NCBI GenBank assembly: GCA_019359095.1
Contig: JAHHHZ010000011.1
Coordinates: 372,001-436,000 of the forward strand
Direction of reading: 5' to 3'
DNA length: 64,000 nucleotides
Origin: Pleurocapsa minor HA4230-MV1
GTDB taxonomy: Bacteria > Cyanobacteriota > Cyanobacteriia > Cyanobacteriales > Xenococcaceae
Part shown: piece by piece, positions 35,077 through 50,316 of the stretch
Numbering within the stretch: position 1 is the first letter of the stretch
Layout: each line of letters starts with the position of its first letter
Notes under the pieces: generated by a model
Database searches by the model: none
Told to the model about the DNA's origin: nothing
What the model saw: the letters and a program-made list of their open reading frames with translations, nothing else
Translations under genes and position numbers: made by a program

Positions 35077-36327
35077 TTAGTTCATATTGTTTCGCACTTT
35101 CATATCATTGAAAACAAGTCGTGACATTTCAGGAAAAATATTCCAGTCATGAGCATAACTACGATCTTCTGCAAAAATTGTTAATATGTACTCTGTTTTT
35201 TGATCGGCAGTAGCTATATATGCGGTTTCTCCTCTTGATTCTGAAGTCCACCCTGCTTTGGCTGCAAAATAGATATCGTCTGGCAAAGATTGACTAAAAA
35301 AACCGCGTACATTGTTAAATATATTTGGGTCTTTATCAACTCTACTTTTAATTCTAGTAGTAGCATCAATAGCTAATAAATTTAGCATTTTAGAGCTTTT
35401 ATCCGAAGAAACTGCTTGTCGTTTGACAATTTCATACATTAGTCGAGAAGTTTGTTTGGTGGTTATCTTATTACGAATCGGGTTATCTTTATTTTCTCTC
35501 ATCTGTAATTCTCTTCCTTGTGGTGAATAAAGTTTGAGGTAGGGAATAGGAAAAGTTTTCTGACTAATATTTAAATCTTCATATCCCGCATCGATAAAAA
35601 AGCGATTGGTTTGCTTCCTTTTATTTAACCAAAGCTCAAGCTCTTTAGTGTTTAGATTTGAACCAGATTGAGTATCACTAATTCGATCTAAAATGCGACT
35701 AGCAGCTTCGTTATCTGACTTTTTCATCATTTTGTGCAAGTCTAAGCTCAGTTGTTCATCTTCAATCAAATTTTTCTCTTGTAATTGAGCTTGAAGCATA
35801 ACTAACCAATAAAGTTTCACAACGCTTGCAGGATATCTAGGTTTTTCTTGTTGATACGAAGCTTCTTCACCAGTTTTCAGATCGATTAATGTAACTGATA
35901 AAGAAGTGGTTGGCAAACCTTTCTTTGAAGCCAAATTTATAACTCGATCTACTATTTTTTGTAAATCTTGACTTTGACGTATATTTGGGTTAACTTTTAC
36001 ATTGTAAACTAGCTTTTGCCTCGGTGTTAATCGAGTCTCAGGCAAAGAAGTAGGATACGTTGTGGACGCTTTTTCTATTTGATTATCATGTAAGTTTGAA
36101 TCACTATTAATTAAACTTTTAGTAATGATATTTTTTGATATTTCTTTAGCGCTTAAATTTCCCGGTGGTTGATGATTTAATTTAGCTATTTGCCAAATAC
36201 CAATCATTATTAATGTAGTTAGTATAGATATAGATCCTATTTTAAACAAATAAAATAGGTCAAATAAACAAAGATCTTTTTCTAAATAACTTTGATTTTT
36301 TGTAGAGAACTGAGATTTATTTTTCAT
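35077..36327 (-). CDS. Membrane-anchored serine hydrolase, class A beta-lactamase fold
   Basis: 416 residues. One transmembrane helix at about 30-48 anchors a periplasmic domain. Active-site motifs are SVVK (Ser168, Lys171), SDN (204-206) and KAG (357-359) in place of the usual KTG. This arrangement is typical of class A beta-lactamase-like proteins and D,D-peptidase relatives acting on peptidoglycan. It is the last gene of a leftward run that includes the IMS protein (14 bases upstream), so a role in wall remodelling for that cluster is possible. True beta-lactamase activity is less likely given the long linker. Confidence 0.85.
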   Translation of the reverse strand: MKNKSQFSTKNQSYLEKDLCLFDLFYLFKIGSISILTTLIMIGIWQIAKLNHQPPGNLSAKEISKNIITKSLINSDSNLHDNQIEKASTTYPTSLPETRLTPRQKLVYNVKVNPNIRQSQDLQKIVDRVINLASKKGLPTTSLSVTLIDLKTGEEASYQQEKPRYPASVVKLYWLVMLQAQLQEKNLIEDEQLSLDLHKMMKKSDNEAASRILDRISDTQSGSNLNTKELELWLNKRKQTNRFFIDAGYEDLNISQKTFPIPYLKLYSPQGRELQMRENKDNPIRNKITTKQTSRLMYEIVKRQAVSSDKSSKMLNLLAIDATTRIKSRVDKDPNIFNNVRGFFSQSLPDDIYFAAKAGWTSESRGETAYIATADQKTEYILTIFAEDRSYAHDWNIFPEMSRLVFNDMKVRNNMN

Positions 36328-36341
36328 ATAATTTACCTCAG

Positions 36342-37397
36342 CTATTTAATTTTTTTTATGGTTTGGTAATCAGCTATTTTCCACTGTCCATTTTCAGACT
36401 CAAGATCATAGCGTACTAATCTGGTATCGAAACCACTAGCATTACGATCTATATTGCCGTATTGATTATAAAGAGTACGTTGTTCTGTCACAATTACTTC
36501 AATAGTGGCGTAATCCTCGTTCACAGCAAAATTTTCTACTGAGTCAATACTTTGAAGATCATAGATATAGTAAGAGGCATTATCTTGCAGCCAAGCAACC
36601 GATCCTTCAGGACTGCCTATATTATCGTAATAAGCTTTGCCAGTGAGCAATTCAGCCCCTAATTCTCTATTAAACGGCGGAGCAAATATTTGACTTTTGG
36701 CATCTAACCATCTTGCTAGTAAGTTAACAGCTTCTTGTTGAGTAAATGATGGAATTGACTGAGAAGCGTTTTCTATTTCAAGGTTTGATAAAGATAAATC
36801 TGTTTGTTGATAAGTTTCTGTGGATGGGAGAGATTCATCTGATGATTTTTCTACTTCTATAGATTCAGAAGTTTGTTGTTCGATATTGCTTGCTGTTTGA
36901 TTTGCTTGGTGACCATTTATTATTAAACCTAAGAAAATAAAGAATCCAATCATACCACCAATAATCCAAGCTGTTCCTGATTGTTTTGAGTTGTTGGATG
37001 GAGGATTAATTGGAGTAACATCAGAATTCTTTTCACTCTGGTTTGTATTAATAACTTGGCTATCTTCTCTTTGTTTACTCAGATTAATTTCTGGCTCTAC
37101 TGCCATAGAGATATCGACTACAGAAGCGGTATGCTCTACTTGTTTGTCTTGTGTAGATTTTCTTTTATCTACTAACTCATTACTATTTAATGTAAACTCA
37201 GATTTGAGAGATTCAAGTTCTTGCTGTTCTTGTTCGAGTTGTTCTATCTGACTTTTAGAACGTTCAAGCTTTCTAATTTCTCTTTCTAATTGTTTTTTTT
37301 GCTCGCTCCGCTCAATTGGATCTGAGATCTTGATATCTATTTCTTCTAACTGCTTCTCCAGCAATTGAATATCTCTTTTTAGTTTAGAACTTGACAT
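36342..37397 (-). CDS. Coiled coil, membrane helix and ARC6-type IMS domain protein
   Basis: 351 residues. The N-terminal 75 are a charged coiled coil (LEKQLEEIDIKISDPIERSE), followed by a linker, one transmembrane helix at 142-162, a Ser/Gln-rich stretch and a C-terminal domain from about 218 (FTQQEAVNLLARWLDAKSQI to GQWKIADYQTI). This C-terminal domain is the IMS/DUF4101 domain found at the end of the division protein ARC6/Ftn2 and in other cyanobacterial proteins. The predicted topology is a cytoplasmic coiled coil and an external IMS domain. The coiled coil is a paralogue of that in the next gene. Fourteen bases separate it from the hydrolase gene downstream. Confidence 0.85.
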   Translation of the reverse strand: MSSSKLKRDIQLLEKQLEEIDIKISDPIERSEQKKQLEREIRKLERSKSQIEQLEQEQQELESLKSEFTLNSNELVDKRKSTQDKQVEHTASVVDISMAVEPEINLSKQREDSQVINTNQSEKNSDVTPINPPSNNSKQSGTAWIIGGMIGFFIFLGLIINGHQANQTASNIEQQTSESIEVEKSSDESLPSTETYQQTDLSLSNLEIENASQSIPSFTQQEAVNLLARWLDAKSQIFAPPFNRELGAELLTGKAYYDNIGSPEGSVAWLQDNASYYIYDLQSIDSVENFAVNEDYATIEVIVTEQRTLYNQYGNIDRNASGFDTRLVRYDLESENGQWKIADYQTIKKIK

Positions 37398-37635
37398 AAT
37401 ATATAAGCCTATAAATATAAATAATTTATATTTAAAACTCTATTATTACCAATTAACTGAGATCTTAAAGAGATACAAATCACAATCCAAAAAGATGGCG
37501 ATCGCTTTTTCTAGTTGTTGTTTGTTTTTAAATAGCCAATTGTTTACATAATTGTCCAAAATTCAATAATTAGAATTAATAATTCATCCAGCGAATAACT
37601 TTATAAGGTTAATTTGAAAAAATGATTTTATACTT

Positions 37636-38343
37636 TTATACTATTTTAAGCTTAACCTTACTTTTCGATTTACTAATTGCAATTCCATTATCAATAGCTG
37701 ATATCCAAGGAGCAGCTACTAAAGTACTTTCATCAGAAATGAAAATAGTAGCAGATACCATTGCAATAAATAAGATACATAATGGTTTCCACCTTCTTGT
37801 ATATACGTAAGGAAAAATGAATCCAAATAAAGCAAATATACTTGATATCCAAATTGCTCTTTTGGATAAATAAATTAGATGAGTTGTCTGGGGATTATTT
37901 ACACTTTCGGGTAATTCTCTTGAATTTACCAAAAAAATAGAATCATCTGAAACTAAAGTATAAGAATCATTAGTCCAGTCTTCGGAGCTTTGATTGACTG
38001 GTAGATCCCAATCATTTAGAACTTGGTTATTAATATTATCTTGTCTTACTTCAGATTTTATTTTCTCGGTTACTGAATTTTGTTCTTGTAAATGTTGACT
38101 ATCTTGTTGTTTATTAGTTTCTTGTTCATGAGTTATCAAAAAATCAGTTTTTAAAGATTCAAGTTCTTGCTGTTCTTGCTGTAATTTCTCGAAATTATTT
38201 TTTGTTCTAGTAAGCTTTTTGATTTGCTTTTGTAATTCTATTTTACGTTCATTACGTTCAATGGAGTCAGTAATACTAGTATCTATCTCTTGTAATTTTT
38301 CCTCCAACAATTTTATCTTGTTCTCTATTTTAGAATTCAACAT
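37636..38343 (-). CDS. Coiled-coil protein with C-terminal membrane helices
   Basis: 235 residues. The first 75 form a coiled coil clearly related to that of the IMS protein (both contain EEIDxxIxDxIERxE and end QQELESLK). After a variable linker come two hydrophobic segments at about 165-183 and 190-210 (IWISSIFALFGFIFPYVYTRR, KPLCILFIAMVSATIFI) with a short basic turn, somewhat like TM2-type hairpins. The tail is Lys/Ser-rich. Function unknown; it would present its coiled coil in the cytoplasm. Confidence 0.7.
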   Translation of the reverse strand: MLNSKIENKIKLLEEKLQEIDTSITDSIERNERKIELQKQIKKLTRTKNNFEKLQQEQQELESLKTDFLITHEQETNKQQDSQHLQEQNSVTEKIKSEVRQDNINNQVLNDWDLPVNQSSEDWTNDSYTLVSDDSIFLVNSRELPESVNNPQTTHLIYLSKRAIWISSIFALFGFIFPYVYTRRWKPLCILFIAMVSATIFISDESTLVAAPWISAIDNGIAISKSKSKVKLKIV

Positions 38344-38455
38344 GATCTGACTAGTATATAAAAATTATATTTAAGACTCTATTATCGCCATTGAATAAAT
38401 ATAATATGAAGATATAAATCACAAGTTGAAAAGATAGCGATCACGCTTAAATTGA

Positions 38456-39850
38456 TTAATCTTTTTGGATGGCATAACATAAACGTCCAATAGTTAAAGT
38501 AGACTCATCCATTGAGTTTAAAGTAATATTTTTTAGGCTATTCATAAAGCCGTATAAATTACTAGTTTTTGAACCATCACTACCACTATTGAGATTCCAC
38601 TCACTCCACCATTCAGGTTTTTGCAAGTCCTTAGCCACAACATCGACTGCAAAATAATAAATATTGGATTCGGGAAAGTTATTTGGATTTATGCTGGTAG
38701 TAAATTCAATTTGATTGTCATTAATTTGCCAATCTTTAAAATTCAAAGCTTTTTCAGCAGCAGGCGCTTGTTTAAACTGTTGTTTATTAAATTTATCAAA
38801 CGCACTGACATTTGTGGCGATTTTTAAATCATGAGGATCGGCTGATAAAGTATGATTAATTTGTTTGAGGGGAAGTTGATATTTTATTTCTAAAGAATCA
38901 GTATTTTTATTCTTAATTTCTAATAATTCTATTGGTTGATTATTCTTCTCTACCGATACATCTCCATTATGTAATAAGTTGGGTGCTGCTAAATCTGATG
39001 ATAAGTTAAGTGGAGAATTGAGATAAGATACATCTGCAACTAAATTATGTGGCGAAAAAATTAAGAACTGACTGCGATCGCTTAAATCTCCTTGTTCTTT
39101 GGCTAACTTATCAAAGTAATTAGCAATATCCTGATGGTGACCTAGAAATAGTACATAAAAAGGTCGATACTGCTTGCTAGTTTTCCCTTCAGTGTTGTAG
39201 TTAAACTTTTTATCGGCATCACTGGCAGAATAAACAGTGCCATTAAATTCGCTTTTTACTGCCCAAATACCTACGGCATAATTTTCAGCTTGATTATTAA
39301 AATAATTTTCTTTGATTTTATTAGCAATCAAATTAACATCACCATCATTTTGATCTAGATCCGTAACTATCACAGTCAGGCGATCGCTATTTTTAGGTTT
39401 AGTAATTAGAGAACCCAAATCACTAGAAACAGCAGGAAAATTGGATTTCTTCCCATCATAAAATTCTGATTTGTGCGCTTTATTAAATTCAGAACGAGTT
39501 AGTTCTTTTGCTTGATGTTGATGATCTCCAGAACGATAGTATTTAACAGTAGCTTTAGAACGACTACCACTTAAACCTAAAGTACTATCTAATAATTTTA
39601 AGGCTTGGATATAAGAACTATTTTCTTGATTTATATAGCCCAACATTGAGCCAGAACCATCAACATTAAAATCAATAGCTAAAGGATTAGTTAGTTCAGT
39701 TTTTTGCTTAACTCGCTCCAATTCACAATGTAAATTGGCATGATCGTCATTTACTAATGTTCCTTCTGGCTCTCCTTTAGCAACCGCAACACAGCCAGAC
39801 AACATGGCTAGAATAGCTAAATAAATAATATTTCTGTTAGATATAAACAT
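38456..39850 (-). CDS. vWA-domain lipoprotein
   Basis: 464 residues. The lipoprotein signal LAMLSGC puts the lipidated Cys at 20. A von Willebrand factor A domain begins at about residue 57 with IDFNVDGSGSM; Asp64, Ser66 and Ser68 form the metal-ion (MIDAS) motif, and VTDLDQNDGD near 160 supplies a later acidic residue. The C-terminal half is beta-rich. vWA domains bind partner proteins in a metal-dependent way. It is divergent from the membrane protein-tubulin-actin operon, with only 135 bases between starts, which suggests joint regulation. Confidence 0.85.
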   Translation of the reverse strand: MFISNRNIIYLAILAMLSGCVAVAKGEPEGTLVNDDHANLHCELERVKQKTELTNPLAIDFNVDGSGSMLGYINQENSSYIQALKLLDSTLGLSGSRSKATVKYYRSGDHQHQAKELTRSEFNKAHKSEFYDGKKSNFPAVSSDLGSLITKPKNSDRLTVIVTDLDQNDGDVNLIANKIKENYFNNQAENYAVGIWAVKSEFNGTVYSASDADKKFNYNTEGKTSKQYRPFYVLFLGHHQDIANYFDKLAKEQGDLSDRSQFLIFSPHNLVADVSYLNSPLNLSSDLAAPNLLHNGDVSVEKNNQPIELLEIKNKNTDSLEIKYQLPLKQINHTLSADPHDLKIATNVSAFDKFNKQQFKQAPAAEKALNFKDWQINDNQIEFTTSINPNNFPESNIYYFAVDVVAKDLQKPEWWSEWNLNSGSDGSKTSNLYGFMNSLKNITLNSMDESTLTIGRLCYAIQKD

Positions 39851-39985
39851 AATTGTAGTTAAAAATAAATTGTTTAATTTTGCCTAAATTTCAGTATTAA
39901 TACACATAAATATGACATTTTCAATTAAAACTTTATGAGTTACATTGTAATTAACTAATATTTATTATGACAATAAGCTAAATAT
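39851..39985. promoter_or_regulatory. Shared divergent promoter region of the cytoskeletal-type cluster
   Basis: A 135-base, very AT-rich gap between the vWA lipoprotein start and the membrane-protein start. Both promoters must lie here or overlap. No operator palindrome could be named by eye. Confidence 0.5.
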
Positions 39986-40456
39986 ATGAAATCAGGAGAA
40001 ATAACTAGACTAATAATTTGTCTAATTATTGGTGCATTAATAATTTTTCTCGGTCAGCCAAAAATTTATGATTTAAGAATAGTTAGAATTACTGATATTC
40101 CCGATCTTAAAGAATGGATTGGTAGTTATTATATGAACCAAGCTAGTATTGTTTTTGCAATATCTTTAATTTCTGTCATTTTCTGGTCTGTTTCTGCTAT
40201 TCGTTCCAAAGCTAACGGCAGCGAATTAAAAACCTGGCAAGGTATTTGGTATGCACTTTTATTTGTTAATGTTCTAAGTATTTTTATTGCTATTTATCTT
40301 AATAAGATTAGCGATGATGCCCTACTTTCATCAATATTTTTCTTACTATTTGATGTAATTTGGATTTTCTGGCTAGGAACTGCTTTAAGTTCACCTAATT
40401 TGTTTATGTATTTACCCCCAGGTTCAGGCACAATACGCAGAGTTTTTGGAGATTAA
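39986..40456 (+). CDS. Polytopic membrane protein, first gene of the tubulin/actin-like operon
   Basis: 156 residues with about four transmembrane segments (about 8-24, 54-72, 88-106 and 115-135) and a short C-terminal cytoplasmic tail PPGSGTIRRVFGD. No family recognised. The stop codon is three bases before the tubulin-like gene's ATG, so the two are almost surely cotranscribed. Likely role by context: a membrane anchor for the tubulin-like or actin-like partner. Confidence 0.75.
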   Translation: MKSGEITRLIICLIIGALIIFLGQPKIYDLRIVRITDIPDLKEWIGSYYMNQASIVFAISLISVIFWSVSAIRSKANGSELKTWQGIWYALLFVNVLSIFIAIYLNKISDDALLSSIFFLLFDVIWIFWLGTALSSPNLFMYLPPGSGTIRRVFGD

Positions 40457-40459
40457 AAA

Positions 40460-41947
40460 ATGACTATTTATTTAATTGGTATTGGTGGCAGTGGGGCAAA
40501 ATGTGTAGAATCGGTAGTGCATCTAGCATCAGTCGGTTTATTTCCGCAAGAGCCAATCAAAGTCTTATTTATAGATGCCGATGAAAGCAATGGCAATGTT
40601 GAAAGAGCGAGAAATAGTTTAAATATTCAAACTGCATGTCAACGAATATTGTCGGCGATTGATAAACAGCAGTGTCCTTGGATGCAGACATCAATTAAAT
40701 CTTTCGATCTGTGGTCGCCATTTGCTAAAAATAGCTTAAACAAAGAATTAAGTGCGTTTTTTAACTACAACAACATTAAGCAAAGCGAGCCGGCCTTAGC
40801 TAATCTATTTGATGTTCTCTATACTGATACAGAAAAACAAGAAAATTTAGACGTAGGTTTTCGTGGTAGACCTGCTATTGGTGCTGCGGTGATGAGTCAA
40901 GTAGACTTAAATCGCTTAGATGAAGAACCCTGGGGGACTTTTATCGAGCAAATTAGAGCGGATGTCAACGAAGGGAAACAACCAAAAGTGTTGTTGTGTG
41001 GTTCGATCTTTGGTGGTACTGGCGCATCAGGATTACCTACTATTGCTCGCTTGATTGCTAACAAATTAAACGACATCAAAATTAGAGAGCGAGTCAAGAT
41101 TGGTTCTGTTTTTATTCTGCCTTATTTTGGCTTTACTGCTCCTGCGGGAGAAAGTGAAAACGGCATTTATGCTCAGTCGGATAAGTTTTTGCTCAATACA
41201 GAAGCAGCACTGCGCTACTATGTCACCCAAGCTCAAGGCATTTTTGATACCGTCTATTTATTAGGTAACGAGAATTTAGCCAGAGTAAATTTCAGCATTG
41301 GTAAAAATACCCAGTGTAATCAACCTCATTTTATTGAATTATATGCTGGTCTTGCTGCCAGACATTTTCTAACGGAAACTCATCCCCAAGAAGAAACAAT
41401 TGTCTTGTTGTCTCGTTCTCGATCGCAATATATCAATTGGGATGACATTCCCGATGGCCACAACGTCCAAAAGATTTTAGGTAGTACGACTAGATTTGCC
41501 TATACTTGGCTAGCAGAAATTGCTCCAGAATTAACCAGTGCCAAACAAGAAGGATTTAAAAGTTATATCAGATTTGCTCCTTGGTTGAGTAGATTCTATG
41601 ATACCGATCCTAAGAAACCACTCCAGTTTGACAGTGACCAACAGCAAAATGCGATCGCCACAATTAATAACTGGTGTAAAGACTATTTACGCTGGTTACA
41701 AGAAATTCATCAATGTGAAAGCGATCGAGTTGAATTATTTAAACACAGCATTTTTGCCCAAGTCAATAATCTTCAGGGAACTAAATTACAAGATTTGATC
41801 CTGGGAGATAACCGCGATGCCAAAACCAGACAACGCAACGATGAACCAACCAGAATTAAAAACAATCTCCATCCCAAAAATATTCAAGGCAATAATAACG
41901 GCACGGTGGGATTAGCTCAAGCTGTATATCAAGCTTGTCAGCTTTAG
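40460..41947 (+). CDS. Tubulin-like GTPase (Tubulin_2 type)
   Basis: 495 residues with the nucleotide-binding layout of the FtsZ/tubulin superfamily: an N-terminal glycine loop IGIGGSGAKCVE (residues 6-17), an early Asp in FIDADESNGN, and the tubulin signature FGGTGASGLPT at about 184-194. The C-terminal 200 residues differ from FtsZ. This matches the Tubulin_2 family, not the cell-division FtsZ. Published genome-context work has linked some such proteins to vWA proteins in predicted membrane-remodelling systems, and a vWA lipoprotein lies next door here. Translation is coupled to the preceding membrane-protein gene. Confidence 0.88.
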   Translation: MTIYLIGIGGSGAKCVESVVHLASVGLFPQEPIKVLFIDADESNGNVERARNSLNIQTACQRILSAIDKQQCPWMQTSIKSFDLWSPFAKNSLNKELSAFFNYNNIKQSEPALANLFDVLYTDTEKQENLDVGFRGRPAIGAAVMSQVDLNRLDEEPWGTFIEQIRADVNEGKQPKVLLCGSIFGGTGASGLPTIARLIANKLNDIKIRERVKIGSVFILPYFGFTAPAGESENGIYAQSDKFLLNTEAALRYYVTQAQGIFDTVYLLGNENLARVNFSIGKNTQCNQPHFIELYAGLAARHFLTETHPQEETIVLLSRSRSQYINWDDIPDGHNVQKILGSTTRFAYTWLAEIAPELTSAKQEGFKSYIRFAPWLSRFYDTDPKKPLQFDSDQQQNAIATINNWCKDYLRWLQEIHQCESDRVELFKHSIFAQVNNLQGTKLQDLILGDNRDAKTRQRNDEPTRIKNNLHPKNIQGNNNGTVGLAQAVYQACQL

Positions 41948-41960
41948 ACGTTGTTATTTG

Positions 41961-41988
41961 TAGCTCTTAGCTTTTAGCTTTTAGCTAA
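41961..41988. repeat. AGCTTTT/AGCTCTT heptamer repeats inside the operon
   Basis: A short run of TTAGCTC/TTAGCTT heptamers just after the tubulin-like gene's stop codon, the complement of the AGCTAAA arrays elsewhere. Confidence 0.65.
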
Positions 41989-42002
41989 CCCTATTAATAA
42001 AT

Positions 42003-42082
42003 GTAGGTTGGGTTGAGGAACGAAACCCAACGCTAAAATCTACAACTGGTGTTGGGTTGCGCTACCGCTTAACCCAACCTAC
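42003..42082. mobile_element. MITE-like inverted-repeat element
   Basis: Starts GTAGGTTGGGTT and ends AACCCAACCTAC, a perfect 12-base terminal inverted repeat, with internal GAAACCCAAC and GTTGGGTTGC words; total about 80 bases. It lies between the tubulin-like and actin-like genes. Related to the segment at 5750-5985. It carries no gene and presumably moved through a transposase elsewhere in the genome. Confidence 0.75.
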
Positions 42083-42107
42083 TCTAAAAACTTTTGACTT
42101 AAAAACT

Positions 42108-45100
42108 ATGGCTAATTTAATATTACCGAAATTAAAAACAGGAACAGATGTTAGACCTCCAGAAAGAGAAGGAATTTGGACAAGCTTAGAATCAAAATCG
42201 GCGTTTCAGAATGTAGCAACCAGTCTCGATTATCAAGCTTCGGGAGAAACTAAAAGCGTAAGTTCTGTTCCTACTATGTGGGCGCGTCCTCTGTCTATAG
42301 AGATGGCGTTACACAATAAAAACTATCCTATTCGTAGAGAAATCATTGCTCAGTGGCAGGGAATGTTAGCTGCTGTAGCGTTAGCCGAAGTCAGACGATT
42401 TCCTTTAACCGCTCAACTAGTGGATTTGAGCAAATTACGCCAACAGCAGCCTTTTAGTAGAGCTTTATACCAACTGTTACCCAATCCCGTTAATGCTCTT
42501 TATAGTCTTGATGGTAATAATCCTTGGCAGGAAGTTTATGTTTTCCTGTGGAACAATCAACCCGTGGGAATGACTTCACCCAGTACCATAGTTGCTAATT
42601 CCGAAGAAGGTAATTGGTCTGGTTTACCCTGGTGGAATGAGGAAACAAAATGTTTAGGATCTCCCCTGACTGGTAATCACCTTAACGAGAATGAAAAAGC
42701 CTTGTTATGGCGGTGGTTAGAAAATTTAGGCAATCATCTGCATAATTATCAAGGTAAACCCAGGGCGATCGATGAAATTAGCGGTTTAATTAATGAATTT
42801 CGCAATAGTTTGGGTTCTTATCCCGAACAAGCCTTAAGTTTAAGCGATAATCCGCAGTTTTTTGGCGTATCGCTCAATCGTGGTGTCCTCAATGGGATTA
42901 ACAAGCCTGCCAAAGCCGAAGCGCAACCATCTAACGTGCGCTTGATTGGTAGTAAAGGTTTAGGCACAGTACCAGACTTACTGATCCTCGATCCGCAGAT
43001 AGCGGAAGCTTGGGGAAAATCACCCCAAAATATTTGGATACATCAAGACCAAACTTTAGCATCACTGCGACTAGAAGATTTAAAAACGAGTAAAGTCATC
43101 TGGCAGAATGTACGCTGGATCGAATCTAAGGATTTATTTTTACCAGAATTAACCTTTATCGATATCGAAGATGCCTTACCTGGTGGTTATTTACCTCCAG
43201 AAACTCAACCTTTAATCTTTAACAAACGCAGAATTACCCCCTTACTGCCCTTAAATCCGCTTCTGCTGGAATATTTCACCCCCGAAGATCTGATCCGTCA
43301 TCTCAATATAACTCCTCTCAACAGCAGCGATGGCTCTTTTATCAGAATTGAGTTAGATTTACCTCTTTCGGGCAATAATAATCAACCGCAAAATTATCGC
43401 ATCTACAAAGATTATCCACTAAAAGAAGAAAATGCTTTAGCTGACGGCGTGCCTATCTTAGAAGTATGGCCTCATTTCCAAGCCGAAGGTTGGCAAGAAT
43501 ATTATGGTTTCTATTACGATGCAGGTTTGGGAGAAGATACGTTTCAGGTCAGTTTTTCTCAAGCAAAAGAACCCCATGTCTTCCAGCAGGGAAGGGGTAA
43601 TTATCAACTAACCAGACTGGATAAATATCCGTCCCATATTTTGTGTCAAAGTCAGAACCGTCAGCCTTTTGGTTTAATCTTGCTGAAAACACCACCCAGA
43701 ATCGACTTAACTGGTGAGTGGCGTGTGGGAGTAGACTTTGGGACTTCTTTCACCAATATCTATGTCAACCGCAGAGGTACTGTCGAACCTTTATCTTTAG
43801 AAACTCTACACCACAAAGTAACAGAAGCGGATATTGAAACTCGTACTCCTGTATTATTTGAATATTTTATTCCTGAAAACTTTATTCCTTTAGAAAAGCC
43901 TCTACCTCTTTCTAGTGTTTTAACTACCAGAGGTAAAACTAATTGTGCCAAAGGTAAAGAGCGGGCTTTATTTGATGGACGGATTTATATTCCCGATAAT
44001 AGCGATCGCTTTAGACCTAGTAATGATTGGATGGAAACAGATTTAAAATGGGATAATTTTGTTCCCAATCGTCTATTTTTAGAACATTTAGTCTTACATA
44101 TTTCTGCTTTAGCTGTCAGTAAAGGAATCAAAGAAATTCAATGGGCTTTATCTTATCCTTCTGCTTTCGCCAAAAGCGATCGTCGTAGATATATTAAAAG
44201 TTGGCAAGAAATCACCGAAAACTTGCAACAAAAGACGGGAATCAAGCAAATTTGCCCCAAACAAGATGATTTAGACTATTTCCGTACTGAAAGTCTAGCT
44301 GTTGCCCAATATTTTGCCGATCAAGAAGATTACGATTTAGTTCGTAGCACTTGTATCGATATGGGTGGCGGGACATCAGATATTTCAATTTGGGAAAACA
44401 ATCAGCTAGTACACCAATGTTCCGTTAGATTAGCAGGTCGTCAATTAATTTCACAATTTTTTGAAGTTAATATCGATTTTCTCTGTAAAAGCTTCCAGGA
44501 AAACCCTGAAGATTGGAAAGGCTTAAAACAAGAGCGTTTTTATGCCAAACTCGATGTTTTACTCCGTCACAAAGCAGAACAATGGCTCAAAGAGAAGATC
44601 AAAAACTTTGATAAAGACCCCGAATTTCAGGGCTTAGTCCGTTTAATCGCCTTTGGTACAGCAGGACTATATTACTACGTGGGCATTCTCTTAAAAGTGC
44701 TTCATGCCGAAGGAAAATATAGCGTAGACGAAATTACACCTACCTACGTTGGTGGTAACGGTTCTCGCTTACTTAACTGGCTAGATAATAGCGGTGAATT
44801 TGATCCTAGTTCTGATATCAACGATTTATTCAGCTATATGTTGAGTAGAGGTTCTGGTTTTGAAGACACGGAAGAAAAAACTCGCTTGAGTCAAAAACCC
44901 AAAGATGAGGTAGCCTGTGGTTTAGTTCTCAGCGATACCCGTCTTAAAGGACTAACCGCAAGACAAGAAGACCCATTGATTGCAGGAGAAGTATGTGAGA
45001 TTAACGGCGAGAAGATTGAATACGATAGTCGTCTAGAGTGGGAAGATACAATTAAAGACTTCAAAATTCCCGAACTTGGTCAATTATTCACCTTTATGAA

Positions 45101-45350
45101 TGAATTTAACTTAGGTATCCAAGAATTAAAGTTGGAAGATATTAAACCAATGCCTCAACATCAAAGAGGAAAGGGTTTAGAAGCAAAATATAAAGAACAA
45201 CTCTATCGCAAAACTAGAAAGGAATTAGATGCGATGTTACTCAAAGAGTTTTACAAAGGTGATGCTGAAGATATTCGCCCTGATGCGCCTTTTATCTTAG
45301 GTTTAAAAGCTCTGTTGCGAGTTTTAGCTAAAGAATGGGCTGGTAAATAA
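42108..45350 (+). CDS. Large protein with C-terminal actin/Hsp70-like ATPase domain
   Basis: About 1080 residues from the ATG at 42108; an upstream TTG at 42057 lies inside a repeat element and is rejected. The first about 530 residues are an unrecognised, Trp- and Pro-rich domain. The rest has actin-fold ATPase blocks: phosphate-1 GVDFGTSFTNIYVN at about 540, phosphate-2 CIDMGGGTSDISIW at about 749, and adenosine-motif-like YVGGNGSRLL at about 879. It resembles SrfB-like and other Hsp70/actin superfamily proteins in large bacterial operons. Likely an ATP-driven partner of the tubulin-like protein upstream. No membrane segment. Confidence 0.85.
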   Translation: MANLILPKLKTGTDVRPPEREGIWTSLESKSAFQNVATSLDYQASGETKSVSSVPTMWARPLSIEMALHNKNYPIRREIIAQWQGMLAAVALAEVRRFPLTAQLVDLSKLRQQQPFSRALYQLLPNPVNALYSLDGNNPWQEVYVFLWNNQPVGMTSPSTIVANSEEGNWSGLPWWNEETKCLGSPLTGNHLNENEKALLWRWLENLGNHLHNYQGKPRAIDEISGLINEFRNSLGSYPEQALSLSDNPQFFGVSLNRGVLNGINKPAKAEAQPSNVRLIGSKGLGTVPDLLILDPQIAEAWGKSPQNIWIHQDQTLASLRLEDLKTSKVIWQNVRWIESKDLFLPELTFIDIEDALPGGYLPPETQPLIFNKRRITPLLPLNPLLLEYFTPEDLIRHLNITPLNSSDGSFIRIELDLPLSGNNNQPQNYRIYKDYPLKEENALADGVPILEVWPHFQAEGWQEYYGFYYDAGLGEDTFQVSFSQAKEPHVFQQGRGNYQLTRLDKYPSHILCQSQNRQPFGLILLKTPPRIDLTGEWRVGVDFGTSFTNIYVNRRGTVEPLSLETLHHKVTEADIETRTPVLFEYFIPENFIPLEKPLPLSSVLTTRGKTNCAKGKERALFDGRIYIPDNSDRFRPSNDWMETDLKWDNFVPNRLFLEHLVLHISALAVSKGIKEIQWALSYPSAFAKSDRRRYIKSWQEITENLQQKTGIKQICPKQDDLDYFRTESLAVAQYFADQEDYDLVRSTCIDMGGGTSDISIWENNQLVHQCSVRLAGRQLISQFFEVNIDFLCKSFQENPEDWKGLKQERFYAKLDVLLRHKAEQWLKEKIKNFDKDPEFQGLVRLIAFGTAGLYYYVGILLKVLHAEGKYSVDEITPTYVGGNGSRLLNWLDNSGEFDPSSDINDLFSYMLSRGSGFEDTEEKTRLSQKPKDEVACGLVLSDTRLKGLTARQEDPLIAGEVCEINGEKIEYDSRLEWEDTIKDFKIPELGQLFTFMNEFNLGIQELKLEDIKPMPQHQRGKGLEAKYKEQLYRKTRKELDAMLLKEFYKGDAEDIRPDAPFILGLKALLRVLAKEWAGK

Positions 45351-45474
45351 TTTAGTCTTTTTGACTTTAATTTATCCCTCGATAAATTGTGAGGTGAGAG
45401 GCAATTTATGATCGGCAAACCATCTCATGATTCTAGTGATTCTCAAATTTAGTTATTTAGCAGCATTAGCGGTT

Positions 45475-46476
45475 ATGCCAGACTGTCCAGTTTGTAAATA
45501 TTCTCATAGAGAAGAAGTAAGGAATTGTCAAAGATGTAATTGGTCGATGAAAGATGATTTGGATTCTATAGGAATTAATCCAGAACATCCAATTTTAGCA
45601 ACTTATATTCCAACTATTGTCAATCGTTTGGAAGAAGAAGCAAAATCTAAAAACAATTTGCTTTTACATATTCAGACATTAGACCCAGATAATCAGAAGG
45701 CGAATAATCAAAAATTGGATGAACTAATCGACATAATTGAGTATAGTAAAAAAGAATACTTTCAGGAAATAGAAACTTTAAAAGAGCAAGTAATTGAATT
45801 GAAGTGTTTTCTGGAAAGTAAAAATAATTATTCTAATGTTGATCCCAAGACAACAAATAACTCTATAAGCACCAAAGATATCCAAACATTATTACCAATA
45901 GAAAACACTCCAGATGATTTGAATAATAAAAATGTTAGCAATATAAAAGATAACGAAAATCATAGCATTTTTTCAATAGAAAGCGATCGCAATGTAAACA
46001 ATGATCCCAATTCAATAAATGAACCACAAGAAGGTAGTCTTTACAATGAGACAGGCGATCGCGAATCGTCTAAAAGTGTTGATACTCAAGAAGATACCGC
46101 ACCCGAACTTAATTCAAATAGAAACTATCAAAGTTTTTATCGCTTGATTAAAAATGGAGAACTTGAAGCTATTAAAGTAGCAGTGCCTCAAGAAACTGTA
46201 GAAAAAATTAGAGGTGGTACTAATAGTGAACTAAAATTTGTTAATGATCGGAAAGGTAATTATTGGATTGTTAATTGGCATGAGGTTTATTGTTTGATTC
46301 CCAAAGAGAAAATAAATATCAATCAATATCAATACGGAAACTTTCAAAGAATATTTAATTGTCAAAACTATCAGGAAACATACAAAGACCTTGAAGTGAT
46401 TGAACCTGCTACTGTTTTAAAAAGTGATGGTGAAACTTGGCAGCTAGAAAGAAAAGGTAAAATTAAATTTATTTAA
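45475..46476 (+). CDS. Zinc-ribbon, coiled-coil protein with C-terminal repeat domain
   Basis: 333 residues from ATG 45475; an ATG at 45427 would add 16 hydrophobic residues. The N-terminus is a zinc ribbon (Cys4, Cys7, Cys18, Cys21: DCPVCKYS, NCQRCNW). Helical stretches and a low-complexity Asn/Asp/Ser linker follow. The last about 110 residues are the domain shared with the next two genes (KGNYWIVNW, VYCLIPKE, RIFNCQNY, WQLERKGKIKF). This copy is almost the same as the middle copy in the 47569 gene, at DNA level too. The cluster context suggests an adaptor in the tubulin/actin-like system. Confidence 0.75.
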   Translation: MPDCPVCKYSHREEVRNCQRCNWSMKDDLDSIGINPEHPILATYIPTIVNRLEEEAKSKNNLLLHIQTLDPDNQKANNQKLDELIDIIEYSKKEYFQEIETLKEQVIELKCFLESKNNYSNVDPKTTNNSISTKDIQTLLPIENTPDDLNNKNVSNIKDNENHSIFSIESDRNVNNDPNSINEPQEGSLYNETGDRESSKSVDTQEDTAPELNSNRNYQSFYRLIKNGELEAIKVAVPQETVEKIRGGTNSELKFVNDRKGNYWIVNWHEVYCLIPKEKININQYQYGNFQRIFNCQNYQETYKDLEVIEPATVLKSDGETWQLERKGKIKFI

Positions 46477-46492
46477 ATATTGGCATAATCTT

Positions 46493-47512
46493 ATGAATAT
46501 AAATAAACATGGTATTAATTGCTTATCAAAACTCGCACTAATCATAAGTATTTTTTTAAATATAGCTAACTCCGTATCAGCACAAGATTCAACATTATCT
46601 CCGTTACCAACAACAGAAAATACAACTTTACCGTCATCTACTAATAGTAATATAAGCAATCCAACGCCATCATTAGATACACCAGAAGAGCAAAAACCAG
46701 ATATTAGTGAACAATTAACACAGATTCAAAAAGATTTAAATGATTCGGGTTTAAAAGAAATCAATCAATCTTTGAACAATAAAGATTTTTTTTCTAAGAA
46801 AAATAGTTTGATTTTTATCGATCTACCTATTTTGGCTATTTTATTATTATTATGGTTTCTAACTCAAAATAAACAACAAAAGCAAATTAAAGAACTAACA
46901 AAAAATCAAAACAAAATTATAAGTAAATTTAATCAATTAAGTGAACTTGATAATCAATTAAGTAACTTAGATAGAACAAGTCGCCAGATCATTGAAAAAA
47001 TTCAAGACAGTAATCAAAGAAATATTGACTCGGAGATTAGATTACGTGAACTTTTTAGTAAACAGCAATTCAACCAATCTGTAAATTATCATAACAGTTT
47101 AACTTCAGATATATCTCATTTAAATTCAATTGTTGTTGTCGATAAAGTTTCACAGTTTGTTGAAACTTATAATCAAAACAAAAATTCTATATGCGACAAT
47201 GCAAAAACTCTAGTTGCAGAAAGGCAAGTAAGCCTGAATCAAAGACGTTCTGGTAGTGCTAATGTAGTTACTCTCGAAAATACGACTCAGAAGAAGTATT
47301 GCATTATTGAAGAAGAGAACAATTATTATCTAATTCCTCATACCAAAATCAAATTCGATGAATTTAATAAGTCTACTCTTGAATCTTTGTTTGACTGTGC
47401 TAACTTAACTTCTGACTATCATAATTTTCAATTAGTTAAGCCAGCAAAAGTATCTCAAATAGATTCAGAAATATGGCAACTTGAGGAAAAAGGTAAGCTA
47501 AATTTCTATTAA
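46493..47512 (+). CDS. Exported/membrane coiled-coil protein with C-terminal repeat domain
   Basis: 339 residues. A signal peptide (cut likely after NSVSA near residue 30) is followed by a Ser/Thr/Pro-rich linker, a transmembrane helix at about 106-123 (IDLPILAILLLLWFL), a coiled coil at about 125-180 and, from about 225, one copy of the domain shared with both neighbours (KKYCIIEE, YYLIPHTK, LFDCANL, WQLEEKGKLNF). The N-terminus would lie outside and the coiled coil and repeat domain inside the cytoplasm. It begins 16 bases after the previous gene, so they are cotranscribed. Confidence 0.78.
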   Translation: MNINKHGINCLSKLALIISIFLNIANSVSAQDSTLSPLPTTENTTLPSSTNSNISNPTPSLDTPEEQKPDISEQLTQIQKDLNDSGLKEINQSLNNKDFFSKKNSLIFIDLPILAILLLLWFLTQNKQQKQIKELTKNQNKIISKFNQLSELDNQLSNLDRTSRQIIEKIQDSNQRNIDSEIRLRELFSKQQFNQSVNYHNSLTSDISHLNSIVVVDKVSQFVETYNQNKNSICDNAKTLVAERQVSLNQRRSGSANVVTLENTTQKKYCIIEEENNYYLIPHTKIKFDEFNKSTLESLFDCANLTSDYHNFQLVKPAKVSQIDSEIWQLEEKGKLNFY

Positions 47513-47568
47513 ATACTAAAAATCAAACATACCTCAATCAATTATTTGAAAAGAATTAACAAAATCTC

Positions 47569-49446
47569 ATGGCTACAAGTGATAAAAATACAGTTGTCAC
47601 TCAAGGATTTGTCGATAAACTGATTGACAAAATAGGTAAAATCTTAAAAGAGCAACATGCTCTCGTTGAACGAGATGAAGAACAGGCAGAAGAAATAGAA
47701 TCATTACTTAATAAAATAAGCTCGATTGAAAACGATTTTGAAGAGTTAACTAAATCATTAGCAAAAGGAAGTTATCCTCTTAAATTAGCGCGATCTATAA
47801 AAGTAGCATCATCTTCTATAAAACCTCATATTGTTCCTGTCGATCTAACTAAAGCTCAATTAATTGCCACCTATAACGAATTAGTAGCCGTGTTGTCTGG
47901 TTATATTATCCCCGTTACCCTTACGTCAGATAGTTATCGAGGTTCAAATTCAGATGAAATAATTTTAGAAACAACAGTAAAGGGCAATTATTGGGCAATT
48001 ACGACTCTAGAAAATAAACAGCATAAATATTGGCTAGTACCTAATAATAATATTAGTTTTAATATTCACAAATTGAAAACAGTTGAAAGTTTATTTCAAT
48101 TAATGGGAGACTATGATTCACCCAATAGTGACTTCATTTTGGAAGAACCAGCAGTTCTTTCTCTATTACCTAATAACAAACAGTGGAAACTACTTCAGCC
48201 TGGAGTCCTATTATTTGGTACAAATTCAAAATCTGTATCGTCACAATTAAAGCCGTCACAAAATGTAGCTGATGATGAGCAGTCTAAAATTAACAAGCAA
48301 CTCTTATCTGGCTTAACAGCCTTTCAAACTGAACTAGATAAACTAAACAGTAAAATTTCGCAGTTGGAAATACAATCTGAAATATCCCATCAAACTCATC
48401 AAAGAGAAAAAAAAGAATGGTTGTCAGAAAAAGAAATTTTGGCTCAGCAACTAGGAAAAATTGCCGATTTTAAATCTCAGCTATCTAACTTTAAAACTAA
48501 AGTTGTTAATTCTTTCAATGAATATAATCAAGTTGATACAAAAGACAATAATCATAATAGTTTATTTACTCAGGAAAGCGATAGTAGCTTTTTTGACAAC
48601 TCTAATAATCAACAAGATATTAAATCAGAAAATAATTTAAATGGAAGCTATCAAAGTTTTTATCGCTTAATTAAAAATGGAGAACTTGAAGTCAGCGAAG
48701 TTAAAGTTTCTCAAGAAACAATGGAAAAAATTAGAGGTGGAACGCAAAGCGAGCTAGATTTTGTTAATGACCAAAAGGGAAACTTTTGGATTGTTAATTG
48801 GCATGATGTTTATTGTTTAATTCCTAAAGAGAAAACCTATATCAATCCATATCAATATGGCAATTTTCAAAGAATATTTAATTGTCAAAACTATCAAGAA
48901 ACATACACAGACCTTGAAGTGATTGAACCTGCTACAGTTCTCAAAAGTGATGGTGAAACTTGGCAGCTAGAAAGAAAAGGTAAAATTAATTTTGCTCCAG
49001 ACAATCAAAACAATATAAAAGATGCAAACAATAACCATAATCAAAATCTAAAAATAGACTTGACAACTCAAATCTCTCAATTTAGACAAGCATATACTCA
49101 AGACATAAAGCTGATTCAAGATCTGATAATAGCTAAAGTTGCAATTAGCGTTGAAACTTTAGAACAAATTACATTCAATAAACCTGATGTAATTACATTA
49201 GAAAATACTCCTCATGGTAAATATTGGATTATTGACTACTCAGGTAATTACTTTCTGATACCGAGTGAAATACAGCACATAACTGATGCAAAAGAAACCT
49301 CTCTAACTATTGCCCGACTTTTGTTTCATTTATCTGGATACTATCCCCAGTACTCTAGCTATCATCTTATCAGACCTGCAATAGTAACTAAAGTATCTAC
49401 AAATCAGTGGAAACTAGAAGAAAAAGGTAAATTTAACTTTGCGTAG
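47569..49446 (+). CDS. Soluble protein with three copies of the shared domain
   Basis: 625 residues. Order: coiled coil (about 25-65), domain copy 1 (about 100-215, KGNYWAITT, YWLVPNNN, WKLLQPGVLLF), coiled coil (about 230-285), acidic linker, copy 2 (about 358-475, nearly identical to the copy in the 45475 gene) and copy 3 (about 500-625, GKYWIIDY, YFLIPSEI, WKLEEKGKFNF). No membrane segment or known enzymatic motif. The multi-copy layout suggests a scaffold with repeated binding modules. It ends the densely packed part of the rightward operon. Confidence 0.78.
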   Translation: MATSDKNTVVTQGFVDKLIDKIGKILKEQHALVERDEEQAEEIESLLNKISSIENDFEELTKSLAKGSYPLKLARSIKVASSSIKPHIVPVDLTKAQLIATYNELVAVLSGYIIPVTLTSDSYRGSNSDEIILETTVKGNYWAITTLENKQHKYWLVPNNNISFNIHKLKTVESLFQLMGDYDSPNSDFILEEPAVLSLLPNNKQWKLLQPGVLLFGTNSKSVSSQLKPSQNVADDEQSKINKQLLSGLTAFQTELDKLNSKISQLEIQSEISHQTHQREKKEWLSEKEILAQQLGKIADFKSQLSNFKTKVVNSFNEYNQVDTKDNNHNSLFTQESDSSFFDNSNNQQDIKSENNLNGSYQSFYRLIKNGELEVSEVKVSQETMEKIRGGTQSELDFVNDQKGNFWIVNWHDVYCLIPKEKTYINPYQYGNFQRIFNCQNYQETYTDLEVIEPATVLKSDGETWQLERKGKINFAPDNQNNIKDANNNHNQNLKIDLTTQISQFRQAYTQDIKLIQDLIIAKVAISVETLEQITFNKPDVITLENTPHGKYWIIDYSGNYFLIPSEIQHITDAKETSLTIARLLFHLSGYYPQYSSYHLIRPAIVTKVSTNQWKLEEKGKFNFA

Positions 49447-49573
49447 ATATACGCTACTCGTAGATACAGGAGAGCGAAAATCGGATTAGATCTCATTATA
49501 TTTTTTTAAAGGATAAGATGGGGGATGCAATTAATCTAACTTTTAAGATTCTAAAAATTTTGGATTGTAATTA

Positions 49574-50254
49574 ATGAGTGAGAAATCTAGCGTCCCGATA
49601 TTTAAGTCTTGGTTAAATCGGGGAAAACAGCACTTTCAAAGTATTCCAGTTTTACTTTGGTCAAATGCTCTGACAATTGTGTTTTTAAGCCTATTAAGCA
49701 TCTATGCCAAGATTAAAAGTAAGGGTTCAGGTATTGAAAACCTGTTTAGCGATCCTTTTTATTTCAATATTTTTTATGAAGGTTGGCTGACTAGTCTCTC
49801 AGAAATTCTCTGGTGTACAGCGATCGCCATCTGCCTCTTTGCCTCTTTTCTCTTGTCTAAGTCGAATCGTCCTTTTCAGGTATTTTTATGGGGTAGTGCG
49901 CTGGTTATGCTGCTGCTCTTTTTTGACGATCGCTTTCGTTTAACTCTTCTTTTATGTGCTTTTTTTGGTGCTTGTAAAGTCGTTAAATTGAGTGTATACA
50001 GTATTTATGGCTTACTGATCATCAGCTACGCTTTAGTATTTGGTCGGACAATTCGCCAGACTCCTTATCTTCCTTTGCTCTTAGCTTTTTTTCTGTTTGG
50101 ATTTTCTAGTGCGATCGATATTGCTCCCATTGGTGGTCGTGGTATTCGCGCTATGTTGGAAGATGGGACTAAACTCATTGGTCTAATTAATTTAACTATT
50201 TACTTCTGGTGGATTTGTCAGCAAGAGATTCAAAAAAATATAGTGCAGAAATAA
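49574..50254 (+). CDS. Polytopic membrane protein, hypothetical
   Basis: 226 residues with about six hydrophobic segments from residue 28 to 215. Conserved-looking polar residues sit at helix edges: FDDRFRL near 115 and MLEDGTKLIG near 195, acidic residues that may bind a metal or substrate. No named family recognised. It follows the three-domain-copy protein after 127 bases on the same strand and may be the last gene of that operon or independent. Confidence 0.65.
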   Translation: MSEKSSVPIFKSWLNRGKQHFQSIPVLLWSNALTIVFLSLLSIYAKIKSKGSGIENLFSDPFYFNIFYEGWLTSLSEILWCTAIAICLFASFLLSKSNRPFQVFLWGSALVMLLLFFDDRFRLTLLLCAFFGACKVVKLSVYSIYGLLIISYALVFGRTIRQTPYLPLLLAFFLFGFSSAIDIAPIGGRGIRAMLEDGTKLIGLINLTIYFWWICQQEIQKNIVQK

Positions 50255-50316
50255 TTTGCCGCGCTCAGCTATATACTTCTACACTATTTATACTATTTTG
50301 AACTTATTTAAATTTA

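Follow-up and report, generated by a model that had tools for sequence, protein, structure and literature searches.

Can a gene cluster that encodes a tubulin-like and an actin-like protein side by side be one cellular system, and, if so, what is its job? The question is raised by a locus of the cyanobacterium Pleurocapsa minor HA4230-MV1, located in a stretch of 64,000 nucleotides (contig JAHHHZ010000011.1, positions 372,001 to 436,000; this whole stretch is called the window). The window genome has 5.6 Mb, and its nearest named relative is a Myxosarcina metagenome-assembled genome (MAG, 96% identity). An earlier reading made from the letters of the window (the sequence-only reading) described a divergent cluster and proposed a machine driven by nucleoside triphosphates (NTPs); all of the open reading frames (ORFs) that it named are present where it placed them. 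The four core genes, the gap between their two arms, and the three genes that follow are given below in window positions.

38456–39850, minus strand: lipoprotein of 464 aa, vWA-like, with lipobox LSGC and the MIDAS-like motif DGSGSM (core)
39851–39985: divergent intergenic region of 135 bases, between the lipoprotein gene and the plus-strand operon
39986–40456, plus strand: small membrane protein of 156 aa with four hydrophobic segments (core)
40460–41947, plus strand: short tubulin-like protein of 495 aa, a predicted GTPase with a Tubulin_2 match (core)
42108–45350, plus strand: actin-like protein of 1080 aa, a predicted ATPase with an actin/MreB-like C-terminal half (core)
45427–46476, plus strand: shared-domain protein, domain at 46153–46470, with a Cys-rich N-terminus by eye
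46493–47512, plus strand: shared-domain protein, domain at 47189–47506, with two hydrophobic segments
47569–49446, plus strand: shared-domain protein of 625 aa, domains at 47890–48216, 48667–48993, and 49120–49440, with no hydrophobic segments

The divergent gap has the length given in the sequence-only reading, and three bases separate the small membrane protein gene from the tubulin-like gene. The start of the 1080-aa protein was placed at the ATG at 42108; the ORF list puts it at the TTG at 42057. In the 160-base gap between the tubulin-like and actin-like genes (41948–42107), GTTGGGTT/AACCCAAC repeats were seen by eye.

Co-inheritance of the core genes

A panel of 386 cyanobacterial genomes was searched with each core protein. 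The tubulin-like gene is present in 25 of them. The actin-like and lipoprotein profiles each matched 27 genomes, which include all 25 tubulin-positive ones; the remaining two are G255 and G038 for the actin-like profile and G048 and G087, with weak fragment matches, for the lipoprotein profile. The one-sided Fisher test gave p = 2.6e-37 for the co-occurrence of the tubulin-like protein with either partner, uncorrected for kinship. In some genomes, such as G111, G151, G296, and G157, the core parts lie on separate contigs and yet co-occur. When the neighborhoods of 26 loci were clustered, the membrane protein and the actin-like protein each appeared in 24 and the lipoprotein in 22. The pairwise distances of the tubulin-like and actin-like proteins are correlated at 0.959 (2016 pairs), and those of the lipoprotein at 0.857 with the tubulin-like and 0.816 with the actin-like protein, all values being raised by shared ancestry. 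The shared domain was detected in 23 of the 25 tubulin-positive genomes (all except G042 and G035) and in 4 of the 361 others (G038, G058, G211, and, weakly, G247), 27 in total. The sequence-only reading had conceded that independent scattering of the homologues in related genomes would mark a chance neighborhood. No such scattering was found; the actin-like, lipoprotein, and domain genes recur with the tubulin-like gene.

The same arrangement occurs outside cyanobacteria. A scan across GTDB found 201 relatives, and all GTDB locus counts given here rest on the best 80 of these and on annotation by hidden Markov models (HMMs) of the contigs that reach far enough. The 80 records comprise 56 with cyanobacterial titles, one of Sericytochromatia (L165), one titled Chloroflexaceae (L129, probably a stray contig), and 22 others; L165 and L129 are counted among the 58 cyanobacterial loci. 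The 22 non-cyanobacterial records are from Poribacteria (11), Selenomonadales (3), Nitrospirae (2), Acidobacteria/Blastocatellia/Pyrinomonadaceae (3), and KSB1, Aminicenantes, and Bacteroidota (Foetidibacter), with one each. Since most of them are MAGs, single titles may be wrong. By record title the core spans seven phyla, or eight if Aminicenantes are counted apart.

The order of lipoprotein, membrane protein, tubulin-like, and actin-like genes is kept across these phyla, and domain proteins mostly come next. All 21 non-cyanobacterial loci and 56 of 58 cyanobacterial ones have the actin-like gene, and it begins at most 700 bases behind the tubulin-like gene in 20 and 51 of them, respectively. 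The corresponding fractions are 20/21 and 51/56 for the membrane protein, 18/18 and 35/46 for the lipoprotein, and 18/19 (Foetidibacter being the locus without it) and 44/46 for the domain protein. The lipoprotein gene shares the strand of the operon in 20 of 21 non-cyanobacterial loci but is divergent in 33 of 40 cyanobacterial loci. Complete co-occurrence in 25 genomes and a gene order shared with other phyla show the core to be a single co-inherited system rather than a group of chance neighbors.

Predicted NTPases and their membrane partners

In the following, motif counts refer to length-filtered sets of homologues (tubulin-like, 470–540 aa; actin-like, 950–1400 aa; lipoprotein, 400–560 aa). 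The underlying alignments held 24 of 26 tubulin-like sequences (A1; two with over-long starts were left out), 19 of 27 ORFs of its own sequence cluster (A2), 17 of 22 (A3), the window sequence with 51 of 74 (A4) and with 44 of 65 (A5), and 29 of 245 domain copies (A6).

The tubulin-like protein was expected to be a GTPase with a GGTGASG motif. It contains GSIFGGTGASG and matches Tubulin_2 (PF13809) with 29.1 bits, over the Pfam cut-off of 27; in the Tubulin_2 search of the genome, the best piece from the window reached 19.7 bits, below the cut-off. The T4 pattern is kept in 73 of 75 homologues, and a T7-loop candidate (N-x-x-H-F-x-E), placed by sequence only, in 66 of 75. In profile–profile comparisons, it matched a profile of eight FtsZl1 sequences with a probability of 97.0 in global mode (E 2e-10, 351 columns) and 95.7 in local mode. 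The alignment pairs GGTG with GGTG, GSIFGGTGASG with GSLGGGTGSG, and FDxVYLLG with FDFTYLVG. There was no match to cyanobacterial FtsZ (0.3), MreB (0.0), or Hsp70 (0.2); therefore, the link to FtsZ runs only through FtsZl1/Tubulin_2. A PDB sequence search with the tubulin-like profile found no match. The architecture of FtsZl1, with about 1000 aa comprising the GTPase, an extended coiled coil, and a helical C-terminal domain, does not fit the 495 aa of this protein, and the homologues in loci L089 to L168 have 474–615 aa as called, fragments aside. The tubulin-like protein thus appears to be a short, distant relative of FtsZl1.

For the 1080-aa protein, the Pfam matches to FtsA and MreB cover phosphate-2 stretches only and fall below the cut-offs, and the PDB matches, of which the best is MreB (E 0.0031), lie mainly in the phosphate-2 region. 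Residues 530–1080 matched the MreB profile with a probability of 95.8 (E 7e-9), or 93.8 over 298 columns in global mode, with VDFGTSFTN and DIGGGTSD aligned to the MreB motifs. The value against Hsp70 was 66.7 (E 5e-5) in local mode only and 0.0 in global mode, and there was no match to FtsZ (0.7) or FtsZl1 (0.6). The N-terminal residues 1–535 matched none of the four families tested (probability ≤0.7). The phosphate-1, phosphate-2, and adenosine motifs are present in 66, 67, and 67 of 69 homologues by loose patterns and in 62, 42, and 53 by strict ones. All three occur in the window protein, as the sequence-only reading had held for its actin/Hsp70 phosphate motifs. Given the profile matches and the survival of the motifs, the tubulin-like protein and the actin-like one are each very probably a nucleotide-binding member of its superfamily. 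Second actin-like paralogs stand beside the first in L098 (16928–19912), L042 (449–3379), L102, L109, and L120. Those of L098 and L042 have the shared domain fused near the N-terminus, and the L098 second copy fails all three motif patterns. In the Foetidibacter locus, a gene judged Hsp70-like by its N-terminus follows the actin-like gene at the contig end (L168:15069–16604).

The lipoprotein had been taken for a vWA protein with a complete metal site. The lipobox and the motif resembling a metal-ion-dependent adhesion site (MIDAS) were recovered: the lipobox Cys is shared by all 17 homologues compared, and the MIDAS-like pattern is present in 60 of 61 by a loose definition and in 27 of 61 as the strict DxSxS type. 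The vWA identity itself found no profile support. Pfam gave no vWA match at E ≤ 1, PDB gave none, and neither two small vWA sets compared by hhalign nor the vWA-motif proteins on the FtsZl1 side matched. Of the 77 loci whose contigs extend 600 bases or more upstream of the tubulin-like gene, 71 have a homologue of the small membrane protein; among 72 homologues, 47 have four hydrophobic segments, 21 have three, and 4 have two.

Stators, mobility, and the possible job of the system

The anatomy of these parts argues strongly for a device that spans the envelope and is driven by NTPs. We favor a mobile GTP/ATP-driven device of the FtsZl1-vWA kind with an actin-like partner, which would most likely serve in conflict (anti-phage or stress); the chance that this reading holds as a whole appears to be even. 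For the job of the device taken alone, conflict or stress is our first choice and receives about half of our confidence. In the periplasm, the lipoprotein with its MIDAS-like motif would sense or grip the envelope, together with a peptidoglycan-binding ZorAB-like stator where one is present. A signal would then pass across the membrane, which holds the protein of approximately four transmembrane (TM) segments, to the cytoplasmic tubulin-like GTPase and actin-like ATPase. Both NTPases may assemble under the membrane, perhaps as filaments or a patch, with the domain proteins, some of which have membrane segments, as linkers. Once assembled, the NTPases could seal the membrane or change its shape, or they could bring about a shutdown of the cell. 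The proposed parts fit the cytoplasm, membrane, and periplasm, in line with the machine across cytoplasm, membrane, and wall that had been suggested from the sequence, but the IMS, hydrolase, and 226-aa genes included in it do not belong to the core.

A bolder version is more tentative, and we would rather bet against it. It describes a new, phylum-crossing class of mobile machines for immunity or stress. In these, the tubulin-like and actin-like NTPases would co-assemble into a single cytomotive unit that connects across the membrane to a lipoprotein acting as a periplasmic sensor; a further link to a cell-wall-anchored, proton-driven ZorAB-like motor may represent the ancestral form. A ZorA-like gene (596–802 aa where complete) is located behind the core in 16 of the 22 non-cyanobacterial loci, and 13 of these 16 also have a ZorB-like gene. 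Among the 16 of these 22 loci whose contigs run for 8 kb downstream, 14 carry a ZorA- or ZorB-like gene, and the two misses are Selenomonadales. The ZorB assignment appears good. The two ZorB-like proteins scanned by Pfam have an OmpA domain (7e-11 and 6e-10), PADLOC ZorB matches reach down to 2.7e-19, and the eight proteins displayed have a first membrane segment of the FxDLM type, the position at which MotB has its proton-carrying Asp. The ZorA assignment is weaker, since several PADLOC ZorA matches sit in the coiled-coil tail; it gains some support from the HMM of the ZorA-like family, which matches the ZorA-like gene on the FtsZl1 side in L183 (6e-13). No ZorC, ZorD, or ZorE was noticed among the PADLOC matches listed for the part of the ORFs that was scanned. 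Among cyanobacteria, a ZorAB-like pair of a second type is located near the system in Snowella (L134/L050), Synechocystis (L048), Gloeobacterales (L158), and locus L162. Without a ZorA-like partner, a ZorB-like gene was seen in L049, L132, and L169, the last being a 74-aa fragment at a locus that has no tubulin-like gene.

FtsZl1 has been described with vWA, GTPase, and OmpA-family genes and was predicted to act in membrane remodeling (Makarova and Koonin 2010, PMC2875224). In 4 of 8 cyanobacterial FtsZl1 loci (L183, L185, L187, and L188), a ZorB-like gene stands behind FtsZl1, and a gene for 552–679 aa occupies the ZorA position; that of L187, from the same genus as the window, has a PADLOC ZorA match (9.8e-14). 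One half of a ZorAB-like stator may thus account for the partner termed "OmpA-like" in 2010. The system described here resembles the FtsZl1-vWA-OmpA systems in its Tubulin_2 superfamily protein, its membrane proteins, and possibly a periplasmic vWA partner. The differences are the length of the tubulin-like protein (about 500 aa, compared with 1070–1129 aa in eight FtsZl1 loci) and the actin-like protein, which is constant here but has no HMM match in those eight loci; the accessible part of the 2010 paper mentions no actin-like partner of FtsZl1. The actin-like ATPase, constant here, sets this system apart from the FtsZl1 systems, as does the ZorAB-like pair of many lineages.

Other known systems share single features. 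In the GAP1-N2 systems, tubulins, actin-fold proteins of the HSP70 type, and vWA proteins occur near the membrane in variable operons (Kaur et al. 2020, PMC7159879). According to the accessible part of that paper, tubulin and HSP70 are non-overlapping themes of GTPase-centered systems around DO-GTPase and GAP1 in firmicutes and actinobacteria, whereas both NTPases occur together here. The Zorya system (PMC11890865, accessible text) has counterparts in the ZorB-like protein with an OmpA domain and the long ZorA-like protein, which occur in many loci outside cyanobacteria and in a few within them, but the partners here are tubulin- and actin-like, and the window locus has no stator gene. The words "tubulin" and "vWA" are absent from the accessible text of that paper and of PMC12505986 on MotAB. 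The actin-like protein shares the phosphate-1, phosphate-2, and adenosine motifs with MreB/FtsA and Hsp70 and has the MreB profile match; it differs in its 1080 aa and in its N-terminal half, which resembles none of the families tested. The classical pair of tubulin and actin folds is FtsZ with FtsA. To our knowledge, bacterial machines with a tubulin-fold and an actin-fold partner are hardly known outside cell division. The sequence-only reading had considered the pairing, with an IMS protein, to be undescribed. No description of the pair was found in the open literature, a scope that leaves most subscription papers and bioRxiv preprints outside; the IMS protein is optional. The system would link the FtsZl1-vWA prediction of 2010 with Zorya-type stators as well as with conflict systems of multicellular bacteria.

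Two observations make conflict the most likely setting in our view: some lineages couple the operon to ZorAB-like, MoxR/vWA, iSTAND, or STAND genes, and the operon is carried on plasmids and phage-like contigs. In five cyanobacterial loci, MoxR/vWA, iSTAND, or STAND genes are located in the operon or directly before it. Phormidium (L118:11587–15556) has an iSTAND protein (PF19995, 1.8e-14), a MoxR-type AAA protein (AAA_5, 4e-11), and a CoxE-type vWA protein (6e-11) between the tubulin-like and actin-like genes. The latter two types occur at the same place in Westiellopsis (L114:12683–14802) and upstream of the tubulin-like gene in Calothrix (L130:1513–3532). In L091 and L092, AAA_35-type (STAND) proteins precede the tubulin-like gene, with WD40 repeats in L092. 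MoxR-type AAA, vWA, and iSTAND proteins are the three parts of iSTAND ternary conflict systems, as described in the accessible text of Kaur et al. (PMC7159879).

Both NTPases are found on five cyanobacterial plasmids. On the Gloeothece plasmid Cy782204, the lipoprotein, membrane, tubulin-like, actin-like, and domain genes are side by side. Since the set is small and plasmid-borne in culturable strains of Picosynechococcus and Gloeothece, an FtsZl1-type function becomes directly testable. On the plasmid of Picosynechococcus sp. PCC 7003 (L181), typed as mobilizable, the system adjoins an alternate F1F0 ATPase operon. A search of a phage collection found no match. Four IMG/VR contigs, two of them nearly alike, carry far relatives (24–27% identity), with the tubulin-like and actin-like genes adjacent in all four, the lipoprotein profile matched in three, and a ZorB-like gene in the two alike; the small ORF between is beyond the reach of the membrane-protein HMM. 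One copy (L295) adjoins a phage tail gene (7e-25) and another (L294) a DNA invertase. These phage-like contigs may come from phages.

In G070, a genome of the same genus as the window, the system has a different location. The matches of its left flank there are scattered over other contigs of the window genome, and the right flank of the window is on another contig in G070. Identity between the two genomes is 89.0% and 85.5% for the core (over 3.7 and 3.6 kb), 79–80% for the domain genes, and 74–78% for the shared flank. Since the core is more alike than the flank and is set in a different place, horizontal transfer is favored, although stronger selection on the core would likewise raise its identity. 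In G406, also of this genus, homology to the right flank of the window starts at 50315, and the Tubulin_2 search found no short-type match. That search also misses the short-type genomes G014 and G076, so the absence from G406 is not proved. In a quick tree, Microcystis loci L100 and L132, from two species, have far-apart versions of the tubulin-like protein, which is a further sign of transfer.

Several points weigh against a conflict device of this kind. Most of the conflict modules are confined to single lineages, and none is at the window. The window locus also has no ZorAB-like gene, and only 2 of the 38 cyanobacterial loci with 8 kb downstream have one. The MotA_ExbB match is over the Pfam cut-off in one of four ZorA-like proteins scanned. 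No known effector was recognized in the core by profile scans of the window proteins, the vWA identity of the lipoprotein is suggested by its motif and not proved, and part of the distance correlation comes from shared ancestry. Some copies look decayed, with a split actin-like match in G042 and one in-frame TAG in G320. Flank proteins (98 of 239, obtained by taking 100 by a fixed shuffle and removing two ZorAB-like ones) showed no clear enrichment of PADLOC families relative to 73 of 76 flank proteins from FtsZl1 loci (three in the ZorA position were removed), a control that is small and differs in kind. The commonest PADLOC family accounts for 3 of the 98 proteins and at most 2 of the 73 (among the first 25 of 87 and of 52 families, respectively). 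Pfam matches of the 98 proteins are mostly regulators, kinases, and WD40 (among the first 25 of 172 families). The favored reading depends little on the ZorA assignment or on the absence from G406.

The best surviving alternative, which we consider unlikely, follows the view of FtsZl1 by Makarova and Koonin: a membrane-remodeling machine for growth or stress, in which the NTPases would shape or constrict the inner membrane while the lipoprotein and stator provide the coupling to the wall, without a role in defense. The relation to FtsZl1, the membrane and lipoprotein partners, the IMS and serine-hydrolase accessories in three lineages, and the unenriched defense families all agree with it. However, the system is carried by just 25 of 386 cyanobacterial genomes, copies occur on plasmids and phage-like contigs, and the MoxR/iSTAND/STAND coupling in five loci does not fit such a machine. 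It is improbable that the system is a force-generating machine for secretion or surface movement, in which a proton-driven stator and cytoskeletal NTPases would move a surface structure or cargo. The ZorB-like protein with its peptidoglycan-binding domain of the OmpA type, the actin-like NTPase, and the lipoprotein would suit this role, but most cyanobacterial loci lack stator genes, and in the neighborhood tables, which involved no one-by-one search, we noticed no outer-membrane channel, pilin, or adhesin that recurs. Tubulin and actin folds both serve in partition, and the five plasmid copies could suggest a TubZ- and ParM-like pair for plasmids or chromosomes. We reject this explanation as very improbable; most copies are off known plasmids, the membrane and lipoprotein partners are constant, no recurrent DNA-binding adaptor was noticed, and ParM is much shorter than the 1080-aa protein. 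Finally, although the outer genes (226-aa TM, IMS, and hydrolase) are not constant, a chance neighborhood is refuted for the core by its co-occurrence and order.

The shared domain and the outer genes

The sequence-only reading saw three coiled-coil proteins with a new-looking domain behind the actin-like gene. The domain, of approximately 107 aa, is indeed common to all three; their coiled coils are judged by appearance only. The window genome has five copies, all at this locus. No Pfam family was found for it (best E 0.0067, in three of 29 members), and nothing convincing in the PDB (best E 0.14). The domain thus appears to be a new, system-specific family. The remaining genes of the cluster are the following.

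49574–50254, plus strand: membrane protein of 226 aa, after the domain genes; not core
37636–38343, minus strand: TM protein of 235 aa, with a region in common with the IMS protein
36342–37397, minus strand: TM protein of 351 aa with an ARC6-like IMS domain (PF13355, 2.7e-27); optional accessory
35077–36327, minus strand: Beta-lactamase2-type serine hydrolase (PF13354, 3e-18); optional accessory

The 226-aa gene had been counted as part of the cluster. It is ruled out as part of the system because it goes with the flank in G070. The IMS protein and the 235-aa protein, previously described as two membrane proteins with paralogous coiled coils, have a common region (phmmer E 3.5e-16), and here too the coiled coils are judged by appearance only; the 235-aa protein has no other homologue in the loci searched. 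The gene taken for a wall-hydrolase-like protein encodes instead the serine hydrolase listed above. The IMS and Beta-lactamase2 genes occur together in three lineages, namely, the window, Chamaesiphon (L101), and Picosynechococcus (L031/L181, which are the same plasmid); in the latter two, the IMS gene is beside the system. The Beta-lactamase2-type gene recurs in L101, L031/L181, and L028. These two genes are an optional pair and not core.

Two further loci have additional genes near the domain genes. In Microcystis viridis (L100:18801–21311), tandem genes whose N-termini look P-loop-like by eye follow the domain genes. The two that were scanned matched nothing in Pfam or PADLOC, and their homologues are only in L100/L036. 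In the KSB1 locus (L137:16164–17228), a gene for an Lcl_C protein (1e-22) with a weak nucleoside-deoxyribosyltransferase match is located between the domain and ZorA-like genes.

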